This document shows positions 8,544-28,586 of a DNA stretch of 28,586 nucleotides, one piece after another. The position numbers and the translations under genes are program-made. The first letter of the stretch is position 1. Each line of letters starts with the position of its first letter. Below the pieces are notes generated by a model. That model did no database searches, was not told where the DNA came from, and saw only the letters and a program-made list of their open reading frames with translations. The DNA comes from a virus, in the IMG/VR virus record IMGVR_UViG_3300020731_000409, positions 1 to 28,586 of that record; one strand, 5' to 3'.

Positions 8544-8773
8544 TGTTTTAAACTCCAAATTATATGTTCTACTGGTGCGTGATATCTAAATTCAATCACA
8601 GCATCTCCGGGCCCACCCCAGACTGCTAGACCTTGATACGCAAAACGTAACCATAACCAACGTCCAGTTATATGACTTCGCTTAGGCCACCACATAAAAC
8701 GTAATCGCCATAAAGCACGATCCTGAAAGGCATCGTATGTTTGTACATCTGGCTCATAACTATGACCCATCAT
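8540..8773 (-). CDS. small Trp/Arg-rich hypothetical protein
   Basis: The start ATG at 8773 overlaps the QueE stop as ATGA, so it is co-translated with QueE. The GTG reading from 8782 is not needed. The 77 residues are rich in Trp, Arg and Tyr (RALWRLRFMWWPKRSH, WLWLRFAYQG). This suggests a nucleic-acid or membrane-surface binding protein. No family recognised. Confidence 0.5.
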   Translation of the reverse strand: MMGHSYEPDVQTYDAFQDRALWRLRFMWWPKRSHITGRWLWLRFAYQGLAVWGGPGDAVIEFRYHAPVEHIIWSLKQ

Positions 8774-9627
8774 GTGCCCCACTCATTCTTAAACAGTGGT
8801 ACCTGTAGTCGATCACTGTAGCGTAGCCCACGTTTCATAGCCGCTAGTGCTACATTCTTGGCATTCAACGAATATACGCTTTCAACACCACCTACTGGCA
8901 TTAGATAAACATTACCTTTAAATCCTGCCGCACGATAAGCACCGATAGCACATTCAGCATCTGCTATATCTTGCTCAGTGGCAACAACAAACTTAAGATA
9001 TGTATGTCCAACATCTTCATACGCACACACAATTTCTGGACGAATAGCATCTTCCCACGCTTCGCCACTGGCTGGCAATTTAGCACTTACACTAAATGTC
9101 AGTGCTTCGCGCCCTCTGGATTTATTGCCCAACGACCAATTCAGCAAATAGTGTCTAAATTCTTTGCTGAGTTCTTGAGTGCCATTAGTCTCAAAAGTAA
9201 TTTCTTTAAGACCTTTCATCTTAGGATTGTCTAGCAAGTCTGGATAAGCACGTTGCCAACCTAGTAGTGGCTCGCCACCGGTAATAACTAAATGCTCATC
9301 TTGCCATTCACCGTGCGGAATAATTTCCATAATACGATCTACAATAGCATCTGTGGTAAGCATAGGACTTAGGTTCTTAAAGTCCGGATGCCAGCTAGCA
9401 TAACTATCACACCCTGTACTTACTAAAGGTAGTTCTTCATACTTTGTAAACATATGACTGACCTGAGCAATATCCTCAGCTTCGTTACTGAGTTCACCTC
9501 TAGGCATACCAAAGCCAGCACATTTAAAGTTACAACCAAATGTACGTAAGAAAACACTAGGCACGCCCATAAAGCGTCCTTCACCTTGAATACTATAAAA
9601 TAGTTCTGCTATTTTAATCTTGCTCAT
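8770..9627 (-). CDS. queE: 7-carboxy-7-deazaguanine synthase, QueE-like radical SAM enzyme
   Basis: The 285-residue protein converts 6-carboxytetrahydropterin to 7-carboxy-7-deazaguanine using SAM and a 4Fe-4S cluster. Evidence: the substrate motif FYSIQGEG(R) (10-17), GVPSVFLRTFGCNFKC (21-36), LVITGGEPLL (113-122, SAM-binding GGEP) and FETNGT (145-150). The usual CxxxCxxC cluster motif is split. C32 and C36 are followed by AGFG, and a candidate third cysteine appears 37 residues later in STGCDSYASWHP (C73), where GCDSY looks like the WCDTxY half of the normal motif. The protein is about 60 residues longer than bacterial QueE, partly from this insert. It lies two genes after QueD and directly after MazG, overlapping it by 14 bases. 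Confidence 0.9.
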   Translation of the reverse strand: MSKIKIAELFYSIQGEGRFMGVPSVFLRTFGCNFKCAGFGMPRGELSNEAEDIAQVSHMFTKYEELPLVSTGCDSYASWHPDFKNLSPMLTTDAIVDRIMEIIPHGEWQDEHLVITGGEPLLGWQRAYPDLLDNPKMKGLKEITFETNGTQELSKEFRHYLLNWSLGNKSRGREALTFSVSAKLPASGEAWEDAIRPEIVCAYEDVGHTYLKFVVATEQDIADAECAIGAYRAAGFKGNVYLMPVGGVESVYSLNAKNVALAAMKRGLRYSDRLQVPLFKNEWGT

Positions 9628-9895: not shown

Positions 9896-10069
9896 TTAGT
9901 TCCAGTGTCTAATAACCCCTGCGATAATAAAGCAGTTAGTTATGATATATGTTAACACAATTACAGTACGAATACAAGCAACACGATCAGCTTCAGCATC
10001 AGTGTTGCCTGCTTTTTCACCCAGGGCCTTGGCCCAGATACGCCAAATTTTATGCGAATAAATCTTCAT
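9896..10069 (-). CDS. small membrane protein between QueD and MazG
   Basis: The ATG at 10069 has GAGTGGA just upstream and gives a 20-base overlap with QueD; the longer frame from 10195 would lie mostly inside QueD and is not favoured. The 57 residues begin MKIYSHKIWRIWAKALGEK and end with a hydrophobic span (VIVLTYIITNCFIIAGVI). The amphipathic N-terminal half plus single span suggests a peripheral/inner membrane protein. Function unknown. Confidence 0.65.
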   Translation of the reverse strand: MKIYSHKIWRIWAKALGEKAGNTDAEADRVACIRTVIVLTYIITNCFIIAGVIRHWN

Positions 10070-10553
10070 TCCACTCGCGATGGCCTTCACGGAATGCCAT
10101 ATTGCTTTGCGTTTCTCTAACTTCCACGCGATAGCACCAAAGTCTATCTGCTTCTGATTGCCCCCACATATCCGGGATATAAACACCATTAACATATTTG
10201 TATAATTGATCTGCTAGTGCTTCACAGCCTAATGCTGGAAGGATAGTTAGTTTAGCTAACTTACGACGTTCCATTTCTTTATAAAACTCTAGTTCTGGAT
10301 CATCTGCGGCTACCAGTGTAGTGTGGTCAAATTGACTTTCAAGGATACCCTTGAGTTCTTTAAGTCCACCGTAGTCTGCCGCCCAGTTACGTACATCCAG
10401 GCTGTCTGTGCCAAAGTAAAATTTCATACTAAATGAATAGCCGTGATTTAAATTACAATGACTATCAGCTCGCCATTGGCGGTAAGCGCAGGGAAATGCG
10501 TCGTGATACTCTTTGGTACTTGTGTATTTGTACTGTCTTGGTTGATTTGCCAT
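10050..10553 (-). CDS. queD: QueD-like 6-carboxytetrahydropterin synthase (divergent)
   Basis: The 167-residue T-fold protein is assigned to the 6-pyruvoyltetrahydropterin synthase/QueD family, the second step of 7-deazaguanine synthesis (dihydroneopterin triphosphate to 6-carboxytetrahydropterin). Matching pieces: HCNLNHGYSFSMKFYFG (32-48, the HGHxY region), WAADYGGLKELKGIL (57-71, the vvDFxxLK region), FDHTTLV (75-81) and YRVEVRET (141-148, catalytic-type Glu). Difference: the second His of HGH is Tyr39, so the zinc site differs from the standard three-His set. A 30-residue insert (about 84-115) is also present. The gene has AGGAG before the ATG and a promoter-like sequence with a palindrome just upstream. 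Confidence 0.75.
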   Translation of the reverse strand: MANQPRQYKYTSTKEYHDAFPCAYRQWRADSHCNLNHGYSFSMKFYFGTDSLDVRNWAADYGGLKELKGILESQFDHTTLVAADDPELEFYKEMERRKLAKLTILPALGCEALADQLYKYVNGVYIPDMWGQSEADRLWCYRVEVRETQSNMAFREGHREWNEDLFA

Positions 10554-13598: not shown

Positions 13599-13873
13599 AC
13601 TCTTAACAGTTCCAGGCTAACAATTTGACCAATGCGGTCGGCAATATCGTCACCATCGGGGATCACGTGTGTGATATAGTTATTGCGATCCGTTTTACGA
13701 TCATATTGTCGAATCTGAACCACAGTACCGCCACGTGCTGGCATAACACTAAAGCCTAGTCCTTCTACTTCAATTGAGTTGGCACCACGTGATATAGATA
13801 CAGATTCTACCACGGGATAGCTGTCCTGTGCGCTGTTAACCCAGCGGCGTAGTTTAAGTTTTAACCAGTTCAT
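13595..13873 (-). CDS. small phage protein, paralogue of the gene downstream
   Basis: The 92-residue protein starts with an amphipathic MNWLKLKLRRWVN helix and has a beta-rich core (SVSISRGANSIEVEGLGF, ARGGTVVQIRQYDRK) and a closing IADRIGQIVSLELLRV. The start overlaps the FolE stop (ATGA), so it is co-translated with FolE. A similar order of elements in the downstream protein indicates duplication. The first helix could bind membrane or a partner. Confidence 0.6.
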   Translation of the reverse strand: MNWLKLKLRRWVNSAQDSYPVVESVSISRGANSIEVEGLGFSVMPARGGTVVQIRQYDRKTDRNNYITHVIPDGDDIADRIGQIVSLELLRV

Positions 13874-14688
13874 TTTCCTGCGTACTCCTGTTGTAGTTTA
13901 ATATTATCAAAGAACTCTTTTTTAGTATTCATATCAGTTTGGAAAGCACCAGTTAACACAGTAGTTTGTGTTAACGAACTGGCAGCCATAATGCCACGAT
14001 TTTCGCAACAACCGTGAGTAGCTTGAATATAAACTGCTACATTCTTTGATCCTGTTGCGTTACTGATTTCCCTAGCAATATCGTTACACAGCTCTTCCTG
14101 GAGAGTGCCGCGACGAGCACACCACTGAGCAATACGAGTGTACTTAGACAGACCAATAAGCCTATCCGCGGCGATGATACCAATGTAAGCGACACCAACA
14201 ACGGGCTGATGATGATGGCTACACATAGAGCGCAACTCACTTCGTACCACCAACATACCTTTGTATCCATCATCTACCTCGTTAGGAAAACTTGTTGCGT
14301 CTGGAGCAGGTTCATAACGACCTGCCATAATTTCGTTAAAGTACATTTTAGCCAGACGTTTAGCAGTACCTTGACTGTTAGGATCGTTTTCACGGTCAAT
14401 CAGCAAGCGATCTAATACCATTTCAAATGCTTCTGTTGCTTCGGATATTAGAATCTTTTTATCTTGCTCGCTTACATAGTCGCTGATGTTGTCTCCTGCC
14501 CAAAAACGCTTGCCTTCACGTTTCATTCGAAAGCGGATAACGTCAGCTAGGTTAGCTTCTTCGTAACCTTTGTCGCTCATATGATTGGCTCCCGTTATTA
14601 CAGCATCTTCATATCCGGGATGATACGGTGCTTGTTGTACTAGTAAATCTGCTATTTTTTGTTCTTCTGGTGATGCGTATTTAGGCAT
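13870..14688 (-). CDS. folE: GTP cyclohydrolase I, FolE type, with N-terminal extension
   Basis: The 272-residue protein opens the 7-deazaguanine (and folate) pathway: GTP to dihydroneopterin triphosphate. The catalytic domain is clear: VRSELRSMCSHHHQPVVG (zinc Cys156, His159), GLSKYTRIAQWCARR (180-193) and ATHGCCENRG (zinc Cys227 and catalytic His225), then SLTQTTVLTGAF. The first about 75 residues (APYHPGYEDAV, RFRMKREGKRFWAGDNISDY) are an extension not found in the compact bacterial enzyme. A promoter with 17-base spacing and a GGAG site precede it; the gene starts an operon. The catalytic core uses CTG, CTC and CAG codons more than its surroundings. Confidence 0.93.
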   Translation of the reverse strand: MPKYASPEEQKIADLLVQQAPYHPGYEDAVITGANHMSDKGYEEANLADVIRFRMKREGKRFWAGDNISDYVSEQDKKILISEATEAFEMVLDRLLIDRENDPNSQGTAKRLAKMYFNEIMAGRYEPAPDATSFPNEVDDGYKGMLVVRSELRSMCSHHHQPVVGVAYIGIIAADRLIGLSKYTRIAQWCARRGTLQEELCNDIAREISNATGSKNVAVYIQATHGCCENRGIMAASSLTQTTVLTGAFQTDMNTKKEFFDNIKLQQEYAGK

Positions 14689-22442: not shown

Positions 22443-22638
22443 TCTTTGCTTTCTTGCTGTTTTCAAATGCTAGTGTTTCTTTAAGTTTAACAATATCGTC
22501 TTTAAGATGCAACCTTTGTTTTTTCAATTTGTTTAACAATTCATCTTGGAAAGCTCCGGTACTTTCGAGTCCGTTGATTTTCTTATCCAATTTGGCGTGT
22601 TCGTCTTCTAAGTGTTTAATACGGGCAGTAATAGTCAT
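22435..22638 (-). CDS. DUF465-like coiled-coil protein
   Basis: The 67-residue protein is a short helical hairpin: RIKHLEDEHAKLDKKINGLE, then DELLNKLKKQRLHLKDDIVK. The pattern RIxxLxxEHxxLDxxI...LKKxxLxLKDxI is that of DUF465 (YdcH-type). Function of the family is unknown. The start overlaps the stop of the DpdA-like gene (ATGA). Confidence 0.65.
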   Translation of the reverse strand: MTITARIKHLEDEHAKLDKKINGLESTGAFQDELLNKLKKQRLHLKDDIVKLKETLAFENSKKAKNG

Positions 22639-24173
22639 TCGTTCTCCAATGCTTCTAATTTTGATTCATCAAACTCGGGCTCATCTTCTTCAACAACATT
22701 ATCTTCAAACTCAAATAGATCATCAAAGTTAGTAAACGAATTCATAGCACGTTTACCTTTAAATCCACGAGTGCCAACAATCTCCATCCAATAAATGTTG
22801 TATTCGTCAATGATAGCATCAGCAGTAGCTCGATCTGGGGCGGCAAATATTGCTTCTACTATATCTTCAAATTTATCTTGGCCTGGCGCACTATACGTCA
22901 TCATTGCCGGACGAGTGCCAGTATCAAAACGCCTATTGGCTTCCTGTACTGCGGTTAAGTGCATCCATACATTATGACCCATTAACAATGCGTAACTAAA
23001 ACTGTCCCAAGAAGTTTTACCTTCTTTGCCATTCTTGTTTAGGTCTCCAGGTTTGTAATAGCAAATATCTTTCATCTTCAGCATATCAGATATAGGACTA
23101 TCTTCCCATCGTGGGTAGATACCATCTGCTACTACACCATCACTCCATTTACGTGTATCTAGTGCGTATTTCTTATCGTCGGCACTAGGAGCCATACGAT
23201 ATGACCATTTGTCATTGTCTTTAAAGACATTTTCAAAATAGACCTGTCCGTTAGCAGTAGCTAAAAATGGACTGGCGCAATCAAAACTAATTGTAAATGA
23301 TGGGTTCACATATTTACGAATTGCTCTTTGAATAGTAGTCAATAATACTGCCCACTCTAGTTTACTTGTGCCCAAGAAATGCATCCAATCGTGTACACCT
23401 TCTTGTAGTAAATTATCATAGCGTAAGGCTACCAAACGCTTAAGGATTAGGTGTACGTCACACATATTCTGACCGCCCATTGCCCATCCATCAAAGTGAG
23501 TGTCAGGATACTTCGAAGGATCACAATACTTTTTCATTGTTTGATACCAGTTCTCGGCATTCTTATGATTGTCGCCTTGTAGAACATTTAGAATACGTGT
23601 ACCACCGTTCTTAACACCCTTACGGTGCTTCATGAAATATTCGTTATTGTATTTGGTGGCTTCTACTGCTTCATTTAACGTAGTAATTTGGCACTTAGCA
23701 CTGGCGTTCTCATCGTGAATAACCCAAGTAGGAATATCTAATGTCATACAGTAGTTACTGATTGTGTCAAGCCAGGTTAATACGGCCTTGCGTTTAGCTT
23801 CAGCCTTAGGACATCCGCTATTGGCCTTCCAATCACCTTCCCATAACCCTTTGGCTATCTGGAAACCTCCAGAATCGCCTAGGATTAGTGTGTTGGGATC
23901 GCGATTGCGAACCATATCCTCTGACCAGTCTTGCTTATTAAGGTCGAGGTTGGCGTGTCCACCGGAGTACAGTGACCATTTATATGGAAACAGGGCTTTC
24001 TGGTCATTGAGCCAATTAAGCTGTTCCATATCTGTTATACCCTGCGGAAAACGTGCAGGATCAACATAATTTTCGTTACGCTGTTTACCTATAAATGTAG
24101 CATAGAATCCACTGATAGCTGGTAAAAATATAGCGTAATCGTTTTGTTTATCTGTTAATCTATCTTGAGCCAT
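22635..24173 (-). CDS. dpdA: DpdA-like DNA guanine transglycosylase (TGT superfamily)
   Basis: The 512-residue protein carries the ordered motifs of tRNA-guanine transglycosylases: GDSGGFQ (D100, acid/base position), NVLQGDN (the IVQGG position, 197-202), FDGWAMGG (227-234, GYAIGG), HFLGTSKLEWAVLL (the LMGVGxPxDL segment) and SFDCASP (D298, nucleophile). No clear CxCxxC-H zinc set follows. DpdA enzymes are the DNA-acting branch; they exchange guanine for a 7-deazaguanine base in phage or Dpd-system DNA. The phage context with FolE, QueD and QueE supports that role over tRNA modification. Residues 480-491 (FTNFDDLFEFED) mimic the DNA polymerase C-terminus (SFDDLFTFE), followed by an acidic tail. 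It overlaps the sulfotransferase by 14 bases. Confidence 0.82.
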   Translation of the reverse strand: MAQDRLTDKQNDYAIFLPAISGFYATFIGKQRNENYVDPARFPQGITDMEQLNWLNDQKALFPYKWSLYSGGHANLDLNKQDWSEDMVRNRDPNTLILGDSGGFQIAKGLWEGDWKANSGCPKAEAKRKAVLTWLDTISNYCMTLDIPTWVIHDENASAKCQITTLNEAVEATKYNNEYFMKHRKGVKNGGTRILNVLQGDNHKNAENWYQTMKKYCDPSKYPDTHFDGWAMGGQNMCDVHLILKRLVALRYDNLLQEGVHDWMHFLGTSKLEWAVLLTTIQRAIRKYVNPSFTISFDCASPFLATANGQVYFENVFKDNDKWSYRMAPSADDKKYALDTRKWSDGVVADGIYPRWEDSPISDMLKMKDICYYKPGDLNKNGKEGKTSWDSFSYALLMGHNVWMHLTAVQEANRRFDTGTRPAMMTYSAPGQDKFEDIVEAIFAAPDRATADAIIDEYNIYWMEIVGTRGFKGKRAMNSFTNFDDLFEFEDNVVEEDEPEFDESKLEALENE

Positions 24174-24792
24174 AATATTTTACTGAGTTAATTAAATCAT
24201 AATCTGCGGCAAAATGCCGTTTAACATTGTCTAAGTATTTAGAATTTTGTATTGTTGCTTTAAATAATTCTTTAAAATTATGTCTAATAGGATCGTTTTC
24301 ACTTACGTGTTGGTACTCGTATCTATGATATCTATTAGCCATACCCCGTTCGTCTAAAAATGTACTAAAGTCTTCTCTGTAGTATTGGTCGCATCTAAAA
24401 AATACACAACGATCTGTGTCCAGGCCTTGTAAGAATTTTACTTGTTGTTCTGTGTGATCGTCAAATGTTATAGTATCAAATATTATATCAAATACGTGTT
24501 CAGTCCATTCCCCGTTGCCAAAGTTGGGATGATATAGTGTTAGATATTCGGCGATGCCACTAAGCCAACGATCTACTGGATCACGCAATACCACAATAGC
24601 AGTTTTATCAAGCTGGTCAGTGTGATAGTTGTAAAACTCCCACCCCCAATCTAATAAATTAGGTTTAGTCCACGAACTAGCATTTTTAGGAATGTTTACA
24701 TACATAAGGTCACTGTCGGGGCGACTCATACATTCCCCAAACACATGACCTTTATGTGCCCACTTGTCTAAATTGCTAGAATTGATTATCAC
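24160..24792 (-). CDS. sulfotransferase-like protein
   Basis: The 210-residue protein has both PAPS-binding signatures: YVNIPKNASSWTKPNL (31-46, 5'-phosphosulfate loop, here IPKNASS) and IVVLRDPVDRWLSGIAEYL (66-84, the 3'-phosphate RDP-x2-R-x3 segment). A central helix and DRCVFFRCDQYY follow. It is compact, like the sulfotransferase-2 type of marine phages. Target (envelope sugar, protein or lipid) unknown. It lies between the clamp and DpdA genes, ATGA-coupled to the clamp. Confidence 0.75.
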   Translation of the reverse strand: MIINSSNLDKWAHKGHVFGECMSRPDSDLMYVNIPKNASSWTKPNLLDWGWEFYNYHTDQLDKTAIVVLRDPVDRWLSGIAEYLTLYHPNFGNGEWTEHVFDIIFDTITFDDHTEQQVKFLQGLDTDRCVFFRCDQYYREDFSTFLDERGMANRYHRYEYQHVSENDPIRHNFKELFKATIQNSKYLDNVKRHFAADYDLINSVKYYGSR

Positions 24793-25514
24793 TTAGTCTG
24801 CGAAGGTAGCATATAACGATAAACAGCAATACCTGAATCTACAGTAATTTCAGCAACGTTCTCATCGCTGATCTTAAATGTTTTATCTCCAGGCAAGCTC
24901 AAAATGCTAATAACAACATTAACTGGCCAATATAGTTGTTTAGTTAACGCACCGCCACAGCCTTGAGCAAAAGTAAAGTCGCCAGCATGACTGCTATGGT
25001 CACCAAAGTAAAACTTTAGATCCCCGTTGTCAACCTTAGTTGAAAAGAATGTAGCATCACTGTGTGCCTGTGCTTGGAATTTAAGTTTCTGGATGCTTAC
25101 TACAGTTGGAGTAATTTCTACACCCCACTTGACCTGTTTCTTCATTGAAACACTTTTAAGTTGGTCATTGATAATAGCTGAACCCATAAAACGATAATTG
25201 TTTTTAAAGTCGCCATCTTTGTTTACAAAAGTAATTCCACTAGGCTCTCCGTCCTGTTGAGTTACTGTAATTTTAGCATCTTCCTTGTAGACTGGAAGAT
25301 TAAGGATAGTGTTTAGTCTATCTAAGTTTGGCATACCAAATGTGCCAACAAAGTCAGCTACTGGTGCTTTGAATTCGGCATTTAGGATAACTGTTCGGTT
25401 ATCTTGATCAAACGCATTAATTGTAGTGCTAGTTTGATCGCCAGTAATCTTAATTAAATTAAGTACTCCAAGGCCTTGAGTGTGTTGTACGATATCGAGT
25501 AAGTGGTCACGCAT
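24789..25514 (-). CDS. 45: sliding clamp, T4 gp45-like
   Basis: The 241-residue protein matches T4-type processivity clamps in length (T4 gp45 is 228). It shows ITGDQTSTTINAFDQDNRTV early, then FVGTFGMPNLDRLNTILNLP, which is the conserved gp45 segment, and the beta-rich second half ending SGIAVYRYMLPS. Three copies form the ring that holds polymerase on DNA and, in T4, activates late transcription. A promoter at 25538-25566 and an ATGGAGAA ribosome site precede it. The clamp is the predicted receptor for the C-termini of gp43 and of the DpdA-like protein. Confidence 0.9.
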   Translation of the reverse strand: MRDHLLDIVQHTQGLGVLNLIKITGDQTSTTINAFDQDNRTVILNAEFKAPVADFVGTFGMPNLDRLNTILNLPVYKEDAKITVTQQDGEPSGITFVNKDGDFKNNYRFMGSAIINDQLKSVSMKKQVKWGVEITPTVVSIQKLKFQAQAHSDATFFSTKVDNGDLKFYFGDHSSHAGDFTFAQGCGGALTKQLYWPVNVVISILSLPGDKTFKISDENVAEITVDSGIAVYRYMLPSQTK

Positions 25515-25537
25515 TTATATTCTCCATTAATGTTAGT

Positions 25538-25566
25538 ATTGTATAGATGTATTTAGAAAAAGTCAA
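25538..25566 (-). promoter_or_regulatory. sigma70-like promoter for the clamp operon, with late-type CTAAATA inside
   Basis: The minus strand reads TTGACT (25566-25561), a 17-base spacer, then TACAAT (25543-25538). The spacer contains CTAAATAC, like the late motif of aquatic T4-like phages, so early and late expression could both use this site. The -35 overlaps the last codons of the methyltransferase gene. Leader length to the ATG is about 18 bases. Confidence 0.55.
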
Positions 25567-26495
25567 AGGTTAAATCTTTTTATTTCGCCCATTGCTTGGT
25601 GGGCTTTTACTGTTTTTAATTCTCCGGGTTTACGAACTTCTAACCAACTAATGGCCATTTCTCTAGCCTGATCACTGACTACTTCAAACCCTAAACTTTC
25701 GCATAAGGGTATTAGTAATGATTTTGGCATATAGCTCATAAAGAAGTTTTCGGTGTAGCCAGCACCAGCTGGACGATCACCATCGTTAAAGCTAAACAAG
25801 AACACACCACCCGGACGTAGTAGTTCAAATGCCTGTTTAAGATATTCTTTAAACGTATCCATACTTCGATAGTTTAAAAAATTCCAGCACAGGATAAAGC
25901 TAAATTGGTTTTTTGGTAGTACACTTAGATCGTGATCGGGTGTTAGGTACACACGAATACGACGTCGATACTCTTCGGTAAAGGAAGCTGTGGCGCTATC
26001 TGTAAATTCTCTATAGTGATCCACAATGTACAATGGATCAGCACTGACCATATACTGTGTCCATTCACCGTCGCGACATCCAATTTCCAAGGCTGGGTAT
26101 TGCCAACTGGTGTGTATTCGAATTCGATTTAGAATTTCGCTGTGTATTTCATCACTGAGTGGTAGTACACGTATCTTACGAATATTTTCAACAGCATCGT
26201 ACTTGAGTTCTAACTTATAATTTTCACCAAAAAACTTTTGACCTTCTTGGCTAATTTTAAAATTTAGTTCAGCGATCATGGCATCGTACATATCGCGATT
26301 ATAAGACAATGCGTCTTTGACAGTTTGTAAATGATCAATTACCTTGCTGATTTCACCAACAAAATAATCAGGTTGACTGGTACTACGGATAGCTTTAATT
26401 TCGTTATCTAACGATATAAGTTCATTACTAGCTGGCTCAATTGTATAAGCCTGCCGTAGTCTATCTCGAAGTTCTACTAGTTCGCTAAATTTCAT
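25563..26495 (-). CDS. SAM-dependent methyltransferase with N-terminal helical region
   Basis: The 310-residue protein has a class I methyltransferase domain from about residue 130: motif I ALEIGCRDGEW (135-145), YIVDHY after it, FILCWNFLNY (motif IV-like) and LLRPGGVFLFSFNDGDRP (the post-IV strand-loop). Residues 1-85 form a helical region (LVELRDRLRQAYTIE, DHLQTVKDALSYNRDMYDA). No DNA-methylase DPPY-type motif is present, so it more likely acts on a small molecule, protein or sugar. The polymerase gene upstream overlaps it by ATGA. Confidence 0.75.
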   Translation of the reverse strand: MKFSELVELRDRLRQAYTIEPASNELISLDNEIKAIRSTSQPDYFVGEISKVIDHLQTVKDALSYNRDMYDAMIAELNFKISQEGQKFFGENYKLELKYDAVENIRKIRVLPLSDEIHSEILNRIRIHTSWQYPALEIGCRDGEWTQYMVSADPLYIVDHYREFTDSATASFTEEYRRRIRVYLTPDHDLSVLPKNQFSFILCWNFLNYRSMDTFKEYLKQAFELLRPGGVFLFSFNDGDRPAGAGYTENFFMSYMPKSLLIPLCESLGFEVVSDQAREMAISWLEVRKPGELKTVKAHQAMGEIKRFNL

Positions 26496-28586
26496 TCAAA
26501 TGTAAATAAATCATCAAAACTTGTTTTAATATCAGTATTTTCTTCAATCTTCCAGTCTAGCACACCTAATAGGTTTTCGACCTTTTGATCTACAATAGTC
26601 ATTTCCATACTCGAATCATCAAATGGTAATTCTTTAAACCATTTAGGTATATGTAATTCATCTGTTGGATAGCCTACACTAGTAAGTCCAAGTGGATTAT
26701 CTTTGAGCTTACATACAATAGTTTTCATACCGTCTACAATACTGGTACTATAGTTATCGCCGTGCATCTTCTTAAGACGATTCCAGTTCATTGCCGCACG
26801 AACGTGTCCAGGCATATTGGCTTTGCCTAGACGTTCTTCTTCGGCTGTGTACTTGGTTAAGTTGTTTACACGTTTAGGTGTACCCTTTTCCCAGGCTGGT
26901 CGTCCAGCAAATAGTATTTTAAAGTCTTTGACCTTGGCGATAACGTCATCTCTAGTAGCACCAGTTAAGACATCCATTAACAGTTCACTCAAGAAGTCTT
27001 GTACTACCTTAGGGGTATCTGAACGCTTAAGGTCAAGACCCATGGCTTTCATCTTACCTGGCTTGCCGTGTGTGTCTAAACGCACACCTTCCATATCAAA
27101 GATTAATACCCCATAGCGTTTTTTCTTAATAAACAACCCCTTAGACGCAATAAGTTCGCGACCCGCCGCAATAATAGCACCCATCTCACGCGGACAATGA
27201 CAAGCACGTTCCATAAATGCCGGGAATGAGTCATTAACCGAGTCGGCAATAGTATCATATAGTTGTACACAGATTTCTCTGTTCCATTCCATATTACCCT
27301 TGGCTACTTCCTCTTTAATTTGCGGCCAGGCTGAGAAATAGACCGAGTCCGTGTCCCCGTAGATGATTGCGTCTCCGATATGATCGTACTTCCCCGTAAT
27401 TGCTTCATTAACGTGCGAGTCCATGTGCTTCGCGATAATACGACCCGTAAGCGTCGTACTTTGCCCAATCCTTTGGTCGAAGAACCTACAGCCCGGATTA
27501 AGGATCGCGCCATAGAGCGAATTGAGGTTAATTTTTTTGACGAGTTGCCTCTTGTCCCAGAACGCTTGATCTTCCTTAGATGTTGCGGCTTTCTTTTTAG
27601 CTTGCATTTCTTTACGTTCGGCATACCATCTCTCCAATAAGCCCGGGATAATACCCTTTATATCAAATCTAAATATAGTACCATTGGCACTGATAGTCCA
27701 AGGTTGGTTGCTGTCAAATATCAGCTTCCATACATTGGCCGCACTCAGTACATCACTGGATCCATCTTGCCAGTCAATGGTAATTTCTGTACCAACTTCC
27801 ATATTCATTACTGCCTGATACTCTAGTGTACCAAACATATTTTCCCACGCATCCGCAAAACTTGATCCCCCGGCGATCTTTTCACGGATATAGTGATCGG
27901 TCATTGTCGTTCTAAGTTGTCCGACGATTGTTTCGGGCCCCATGTTAAGAGCACGGATCGCCGACGGGTAGAGCGAATTGATATCGATCGCTCCGATGTA
28001 TTCGTGCATACCTCTTTTGGGATAAGCAACATAGGCACCTGCGGCCTGCGTTTCTCCTTGATCATCTCTACTCCTTCGGTTAGGTACAATCATATTACGA
28101 CTGTGGGCTTCATTAATAATAGCTTGTTCAGTAACTGCTACAGCACCCATTGTAGTCTGTAGCAATACTGTGTTGTCGTGTGCTAGTTCGTTAGCTAAAT
28201 CTAAGAATCTTAGTTTCTGATCCAGTTTAGATAACAACATAGTATCTTGTCGGTTATACTCAATAAACGTTGGAAAGTCTTTGTTGTAAAGTTGATCTAA
28301 TGTACCTTCGTACGGCGTTTTACTATCGCCTAATTCGTATTCAGCAATTGCATCTAGGCTATAACTGTGACGTTCTTCATAGGTATATTTTCTATACAAC
28401 TGCATATAGTCCATATGTACGCGACCAATTAAATCAAATGTTAATTGTTCTGCGCCAAAACGTTCAAAGGTACGTTGCTTAGGAAATTGTCCCCACAGGC
28501 ATAAACGGCGAGTATCGTCTTTGCTCAATACTCGATGAATACGCATAACAGTATAGGGAATATCGAAACCTTCCGAGTTCCATCCG
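26492..28586 (-). CDS. 43: DNA polymerase, family B (T4 gp43-like), N-terminus cut by window edge
   Basis: The frame is open to the window end: codons beyond 28546 read WNSEGFDIPYTV, the exonuclease II motif of T4 polymerase, so the visible Met at 28546 is not the start. About 698 residues of roughly 850-900 are present. Motifs: GAIDINSLYPSAI (motif A), KKINLNSLYGAI (motif B), AIIYGDTDSVYF (motif C), then the thumb and the C-terminal TSFDDLFTFE, the clamp-binding peptide. It copies the phage genome with 3' proofreading. Two stretches (about 27340-27560 and 27880-28050), exactly over motifs A, B and C, use ACG, TCG, CTC, GGG, GGA and GTC codons unlike the rest. Confidence 0.96.
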   Translation of the reverse strand, partial: GWNSEGFDIPYTVMRIHRVLSKDDTRRLCLWGQFPKQRTFERFGAEQLTFDLIGRVHMDYMQLYRKYTYEERHSYSLDAIAEYELGDSKTPYEGTLDQLYNKDFPTFIEYNRQDTMLLSKLDQKLRFLDLANELAHDNTVLLQTTMGAVAVTEQAIINEAHSRNMIVPNRRSRDDQGETQAAGAYVAYPKRGMHEYIGAIDINSLYPSAIRALNMGPETIVGQLRTTMTDHYIREKIAGGSSFADAWENMFGTLEYQAVMNMEVGTEITIDWQDGSSDVLSAANVWKLIFDSNQPWTISANGTIFRFDIKGIIPGLLERWYAERKEMQAKKKAATSKEDQAFWDKRQLVKKINLNSLYGAILNPGCRFFDQRIGQSTTLTGRIIAKHMDSHVNEAITGKYDHIGDAIIYGDTDSVYFSAWPQIKEEVAKGNMEWNREICVQLYDTIADSVNDSFPAFMERACHCPREMGAIIAAGRELIASKGLFIKKKRYGVLIFDMEGVRLDTHGKPGKMKAMGLDLKRSDTPKVVQDFLSELLMDVLTGATRDDVIAKVKDFKILFAGRPAWEKGTPKRVNNLTKYTAEEERLGKANMPGHVRAAMNWNRLKKMHGDNYSTSIVDGMKTIVCKLKDNPLGLTSVGYPTDELHIPKWFKELPFDDSSMEMTIVDQKVENLLGVLDWKIEENTDIKTSFDDLFTFE

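Follow-up and report, generated by a model that had tools for sequence, protein, structure and literature searches.

Why should a phage enzyme that exchanges bases in DNA carry, near its C-terminus, a near copy of the peptide in which the phage DNA polymerase ends? The question is raised by IMG/VR virus record IMGVR_UViG_3300020731_000409, a 28.6-kb record analysed over its full length of 28,586 nucleotides (the window), which on the minus strand encodes, in this order, a family B DNA polymerase, a methyltransferase-like protein, a sliding clamp, a sulfotransferase-like protein and a DpdA-like enzyme. From the comparison of sequences across related phages we consider it very probable that the DpdA-like enzyme is a client of the phage sliding clamp, probably one that acts on DNA at the replication fork or behind it. 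The features concerned are:

22635 to 24173, minus strand: open reading frame (ORF) of 512 amino acids for the DpdA-like enzyme (DpdA2-like branch), a predicted TGT-superfamily DNA guanine transglycosylase, assigned from the ORF, an AlphaFold2 (AF2) model, PDB comparison and hhalign; catalytic residues Asp100 (DSGGFQ) and Asp298 (ISFD), from the alignment of conserved Asp residues
22638 to 22841, minus strand: C-terminal extension of the DpdA-like enzyme past the TGT fold, residues 445-512, with an acidic end and low model confidence near the motif
22701 to 22730, minus strand: candidate clamp-docking motif NFDDLFEFED, DpdA-like residues 482-491
22641 to 22676, minus strand: second conserved block of the DpdA-like tail, residues 500-511, EFDESKLEALEN, predicted as a short helix
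24789 to 25514, minus strand: sliding clamp, 241 amino acids, PCNA fold, phrog_12062
26492 to 28585, minus strand: family B DNA polymerase, C-terminal 697 codons, the 5' end being cut by the window edge
26495 to 26521, minus strand: C-terminal clamp-docking peptide of the polymerase, SFDDLFTFE

A preliminary description of this DNA had drawn attention to the two peptides, and both were confirmed. The translated polymerase ORF (26492 to 28546) ends in ...IKTSFDDLFTFE (TSFDDLFTFE), and the DpdA-like protein has its copy at residues 482-491, followed by an acidic tail. TGT structures align with the enzyme up to residue 444 only, which leaves the motif in the tail that follows; in the AF2 model, residues 471-500 have a predicted local distance difference test (pLDDT) score of about 45-53, with a helical turn at 483-486. 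As modelled, the motif sits in a flexible segment outside the TGT fold.

The motif is kept in close and in distant homologues of the enzyme. The anchor residues F483, L486 and F487 are found in 41/47, 42/47 and 41/47 homologues, respectively, the rest of the tail being variable (the homologues share ancestry, and here and below the counts of motifs and loci are of related sequences and not of independent events). In four relatives (L001, L003, L051 and L076) there is no motif at the usual site; however, as their C-terminus reads LNPELFGE or similar, we conclude from these sequences that the motif has moved to the extreme C-terminus instead of being lost. Absence of the segment from close relatives, which the preliminary description had named as the finding that would speak against it, was therefore not what we saw. 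The motif was again present in 80 more distant loci, where the enzymes are 40-53% identical to that of Pseudomonas phage PA5oct, and when both homologue sets were taken together 71 of the 74 non-redundant proteins had F-x-x-L-F-acidic, the forms in the remaining three being degenerate. A clamp gene lies upstream, no more than 1.5 kb from the DpdA-like gene, in 155 of 162 loci. Single-sequence scans with the enzymes of Vibrio phage 2.275.O and PA5oct returned no relatives, but an alignment query did find them. The second tail block (D-x-x-x-L-x-x-L-E) is also present in PA5oct, as NDEKLTELEQ, and the LFGE-ending relatives have lost it along with the FxxLF motif.

It could be argued that the resemblance is fortuitous, or that it reflects a structural feature of the DpdA, such as a fold-back helix or a dimer contact, unrelated to the clamp. 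In the window alone, F-x-x-[LM]-F within the last 70 residues was expected 0.65 times by chance and seen three times among 53 ORFs, one of these probably by chance, and the motif is predicted as a short helical turn; both points would suit such an explanation. A loose tail pattern also matched shuffled tails (mean 27.5 of 74) and, as this was too frequent, weight was put on a stricter logo, on covariation and on the 9g-type family described below. Among the 400 ORFs of a 331-kb relative, the motif was limited, in this context, to the polymerase and the DpdA. Neither the shuffles nor this whole-genome census accounts for the motif, and a chance origin was rejected. Further points against the explanation are that the motif is retained in many relatives, relocated and not lost, and covaries with the polymerase, that an independent DpdA lineage converges on it, and that DpdAs away from a clamp are without it. 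We conclude that it is the comparison of sequences, not the statistics of the window, that excludes chance, and we regard chance and structural feature together as extremely improbable.

The preliminary description had also placed the clamp gene between those of the polymerase and the DpdA-like enzyme, which holds: the AF2 model of the 24789-25514 product (pLDDT 92.6) is PCNA-like (a comparison with yeast PCNA gave a Z score of 18.7 over 225 residues), and the homologue of this clamp in a Vibrio phage matches the processivity factor phrog_223. The DpdA logo, F-[NGD]-[ASN]-L-F-[ED]-[FVI]-[ED], is close to that of the polymerase end, F-[NDG]-[SK]-L-F-[DS]-F-[ED], and the motif was found to covary with the polymerase C-terminus, although in few independent events. 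The PA5oct proteins have HFDSLFGW (polymerase) and SFNSLFDVD (DpdA), and in Vibrio phage 2.275.O the polymerase ends NTDLFDW and the DpdA NNDLFGW, the sole two such ends in that genome. One clade has polymerases ending FFEF together with DpdA motifs that also read FF (4/4), the DpdA C-terminus in two cases being exactly ...NEFFEF; the joint switch has a Fisher p of 2e-5, uncorrected for kinship and from this single clade (support 98 in a quick tree). A gene for a Hef-like homing endonuclease interrupts the polymerase gene of PA5oct (L081, 2006-4828), where the clamp homologue carries the annotation 'structural protein'.

Several replication proteins can accept tails that are short and hydrophobic-acidic, and the motif might bind the clamp loader, the single-stranded DNA-binding protein or the primase instead of the clamp. 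We consider this very unlikely: the DpdA logo matches the cognate polymerase C-terminus and changes jointly with it, the clamp gene is the adjacent one, and the motif of the 9g-type DpdAs, which in some is the QLGLF of Pol II from E. coli, fits a validated beta-clamp consensus (PMC3716654).

The identity of the DpdA-like enzyme was decided by fold comparison, since the sequence routes failed: it matched no Pfam, PHROG or NCBIfam profile and had no meaningful match in the PDB by sequence. The AF2 model, for which 47 homologues were the input, had a pLDDT of 76; its best seven Foldseek matches were all TGTs (E value 7e-6, probability 1.0), and in the VIA comparison 50/50 of the matches listed were TGTs, the best with a Z score of 17.9 over 306 residues at a root-mean-square deviation of 5.2. 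It can be seen from the alignments that D100 and D298 are invariant in the 47 homologues and also in PA5oct, Vibrio phage 2.275.O and Phosso, relatives at 32-37% identity included. By hhalign, the KVP40 DpdA2 homologue is related to the DpdA-like family at 85%, whereas no relation to the 9g-type DpdA was detectable; we therefore designate the window enzyme 'DpdA-like, DpdA2-like branch', outside the curated 9g or bacterial DpdA families. We infer its specificity for DNA from its fold, the pathway genes and the neighbourhood. That it is instead a tRNA-modifying or other TGT-like enzyme would be in keeping with the failure of all three profile collections to match it, but is in our view very improbable, given that the top folds are all TGTs and both catalytic Asp residues are retained, that genes for FolE, QueD and QueE lie in the window and the neighbours are replication genes, and that kinship to KVP40 DpdA2 is detectable. 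The TGT fold of the Vibrio phage 2.275.O DpdA (L083, 5902-7692) is interrupted midway by an additional Lys- and Glu-rich segment of about 90 residues.

A second DpdA lineage, of the phage 9g type, proved to end in a clamp-type motif as well. In phage 9g the gene order is polymerase-clamp-DpdA and the DpdA C-terminus reads RLQDLFDE; further DpdAs of this type end in QELF, QMELF, QPGLF and QRLF, and that of Streptococcus phage Dp-1 in RQRRLF. Of 55 non-redundant 9g-type DpdAs, 53 have [LMIF][FW] within the last five residues, against 12/529 of the other ORFs of the same loci, and the remaining two have the motif a few residues upstream. The usual ends are DQIGLF and DQMGLF (DQxGLF), while three read QLGLF, as does the clamp peptide of Pol II from E. 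coli (PMC3716654); a C-terminal QLxLF has been published as the beta-binding consensus (PMC4549789, PMC3716654). The motif Leu is among 33 invariant columns of a family in which identity falls to 26% and the linker before the motif is unalignable, and the clamps neighbouring these DpdAs belong to a processivity-factor PHROG. Judged by this consensus, the 9g-type DpdAs carry the bacterial clamp motif, a broader finding than the preliminary description had assumed.

DpdAs that are not encoded beside a clamp gene gave a different picture. The motif was sought in eight of these and was missing in all eight, namely those of actinophages Typha, CRB2, Hedgerow, Sour and Nicole72, that of Flavobacterium phage immuto, and the DpdA2 proteins of KVP40 and pf16. 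The last two, from T4-like phages, had been hoped for as positives and were rejected. Beside or near the genes for the motif-less actinophage DpdAs (L163, L173, L174, L175 and L176) there is a ParB-like or annotated regulator gene and not a clamp gene, and the pattern is possibly one of swapping one DNA-bound partner for another. A ParB_N scan gave no match in the phages with clamp-linked DpdAs, although the model also missed the annotated ParB-like genes in four of the five actinophages.

A mechanism in which the enzyme acts from the clamp would run as follows. The flexible C-terminal tail of the DpdA, in which the clamp-docking peptide of the polymerase is copied, would bind a clamp protomer at its hydrophobic pocket, and the base-exchange enzyme would so be held by the ring that encircles the DNA. 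Since clamp loading takes place at primer-template junctions and up to three pockets would be on offer, this could place the DpdA beside or behind the polymerase, where guanine might be exchanged for a 7-deazaguanine in fresh phage DNA before restriction enzymes act. In the 9g lineage the same arrangement may have arisen or been retained with a bacterial-type QxxLF at the very C-terminus and a beta-like clamp of its own encoded next door. The preliminary description had proposed that the base-exchange enzyme rides the clamp, and this is supported by motif retention, by covariation and by the predicted folds; physical binding, the pocket used and the coupling to replication we infer from these. 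Were the motif a true ligand, the clamp would be shared or contested between polymerase and DpdA, coupling fork speed to modification density. A clamp tether would also give a concrete mechanism by which DpdA might locate phage DNA and be timed against host restriction and, if true, would explain why in phages dpdA is so often a neighbour of the genes for clamp and polymerase, while the motif could serve as a sequence tag for unrecognised replication-coupled modification enzymes.

Four observations weigh against this proposal. The FF covariation is one joint event on the tree, and its Fisher value overstates independence. The Phosso-type DpdA, encoded far from a clamp, ends only in a weak IVEGLF/GGIFS. 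Hedgerow, a phage of the Rosebush species, has a DpdA without the motif, so that high modification is possible without it; since Rosebush DNA has a dPreQ0 level like that of CAjan (PMC6884629), tethering is no general requirement for a high level, and an effect of the tether on the timing, distribution or efficiency of modification is more likely. Finally, in T4 the contact of alpha-glucosyltransferase with the gp45 clamp adds little to the share of alpha-glucosylation (PMC13216743), and a real contact between DpdA and clamp may therefore have a small effect also.

The T4 result bears equally on the question of what a clamp-bound tail would be for. It may be that the tail does bind the clamp but for other ends, on leftover clamps, on recombination or packaging intermediates, or in competition with the polymerase. 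Clamps are sliding tool-belts for many clients (PMC2988020), the DpdA peptide nearly equals that of the polymerase, which makes competition possible, and the clamp effect on glucosylation is the small one just described. However, the order dpdA-clamp-pol is found in both DpdA lineages, which points to joint expression with the replication genes, and T4 gp55 and gp33 share a motif with the polymerase yet co-exist with it. We regard such other ends as possible but rather doubtful, and retain modification at or behind the fork as the preferred reading.

The remaining genes of interest in the window, which belongs to a phage group whose members reach 331-353 kb and which had no match when phage records were searched with it by nucleotide sequence, are:

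24160 to 24792, minus strand: sulfotransferase-like gene between the clamp and DpdA-like genes, retained in part of the relatives and outside the present proposal
25563 to 26495, minus strand: methyltransferase-domain gene between the clamp and polymerase genes, divergent across relatives
13870 to 14688, minus strand: FolE, GTP cyclohydrolase I of the 7-deazaguanine pathway
10050 to 10553, minus strand: QueD-like 6-pyruvoyl-tetrahydropterin synthase
8770 to 9627, minus strand: QueE-like radical SAM 7-carboxy-7-deazaguanine synthase

FolE, QueD and QueE, which serve 7-deazaguanine synthesis, are thus all encoded within the window, and the three are present in its phage group as well. QueC was searched for in four long relatives (L023, L036, L230 and L244) and in PA5oct (L081) and was not found, suggesting that the base inserted in this phage group is 7-carboxy-7-deazaguanine or one that the host completes. 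The window QueD ends with a short extension, HREWNEDLFA, that is identical in the long relatives G001 and G010 and missing from G002, G011 and PA5oct; it may represent another end of the clamp type or else mark a lineage. QueD was dropped as an additional clamp client, EDLFA not being retained in all relatives. In Phosso, a 180-residue ORF beside folE (153352-153894; L145, 13352-13894) ends NLNDLFDFG, like the end of the Phosso polymerase, FNDLFTF, and is possibly a further clamp client.

How does this arrangement compare with known systems? The 9g/CAjan-type DpdA (phrog_887; Hutinet et al., 2019, PMC6884629) is likewise of the TGT superfamily, accompanied by preQ0-pathway genes and encoded beside clamp and polymerase, and in this analysis was found to have a C-terminal clamp-type motif also. 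It differs from the window enzyme in having no detectable homology to it, in size (300-317 against 512 amino acids) and in its motif, QxxLF at the very end as opposed to FxxLF-acidic inside a tail. 9g DpdA is active in E. coli when none of the phage replication proteins is there (PMC6884629); the cell has a beta clamp of its own, and this is compatible with tethering but is no evidence for it. DpdA2 of Vibrio phage nt-1 (PMC6884629; homologue KVP40.0122) has profile similarity to the window family and the same DSGG, HxLG and ISxD blocks; unlike the window enzyme, KVP40 and pf16 DpdA2 are motif-less, and their genes belong to the preQ0 cluster, at a distance from the clamp gene.

The C-termini of T4 gp43, gp55 and gp33 (PMC2988020, PMC7892883) similarly share a hydrophobic-acidic docking peptide on a variable linker, and their clamp motifs are interchangeable (PMC2988020), but none of the three, a polymerase and transcription factors, is a base-modification enzyme. 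A phage DNA-modification enzyme on a phage clamp is known from T4 too, in alpha-glucosyltransferase bound to gp45 (Sommer et al., 2004, as reported in PMC13216743); we consider it a partial precedent, differing from DpdA in chemistry and fold and, according to that report, affecting the in vivo modification pattern only slightly. In the bacterial Dpd system, as outlined in PMC6392294, DpdA also exchanges bases in DNA but has a ParB-family partner, DpdB, and the actinophage DpdAs encoded beside ParB-like genes are without the clamp motif. The founding DpdA paper makes no mention of a clamp, and the open-access literature on DpdA and sliding clamps held incidental co-mentions only, although subscription papers may have been missed. 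Clamp tethering might even be a general means of phage DpdA delivery, gained separately in at least two TGT lineages with a motif matched to the clamp and replacing the ParB-family DpdB of clamp-less DpdAs, with modification coupled to replication in the manner of maintenance methylation on PCNA; we offer this wider proposal tentatively, as plausible but not yet probable. The clamp client as a kind, and a clamp-bound phage modification enzyme, are known, and what appears to be new is a clamp-tethered base-exchange enzyme in two DpdA lineages.

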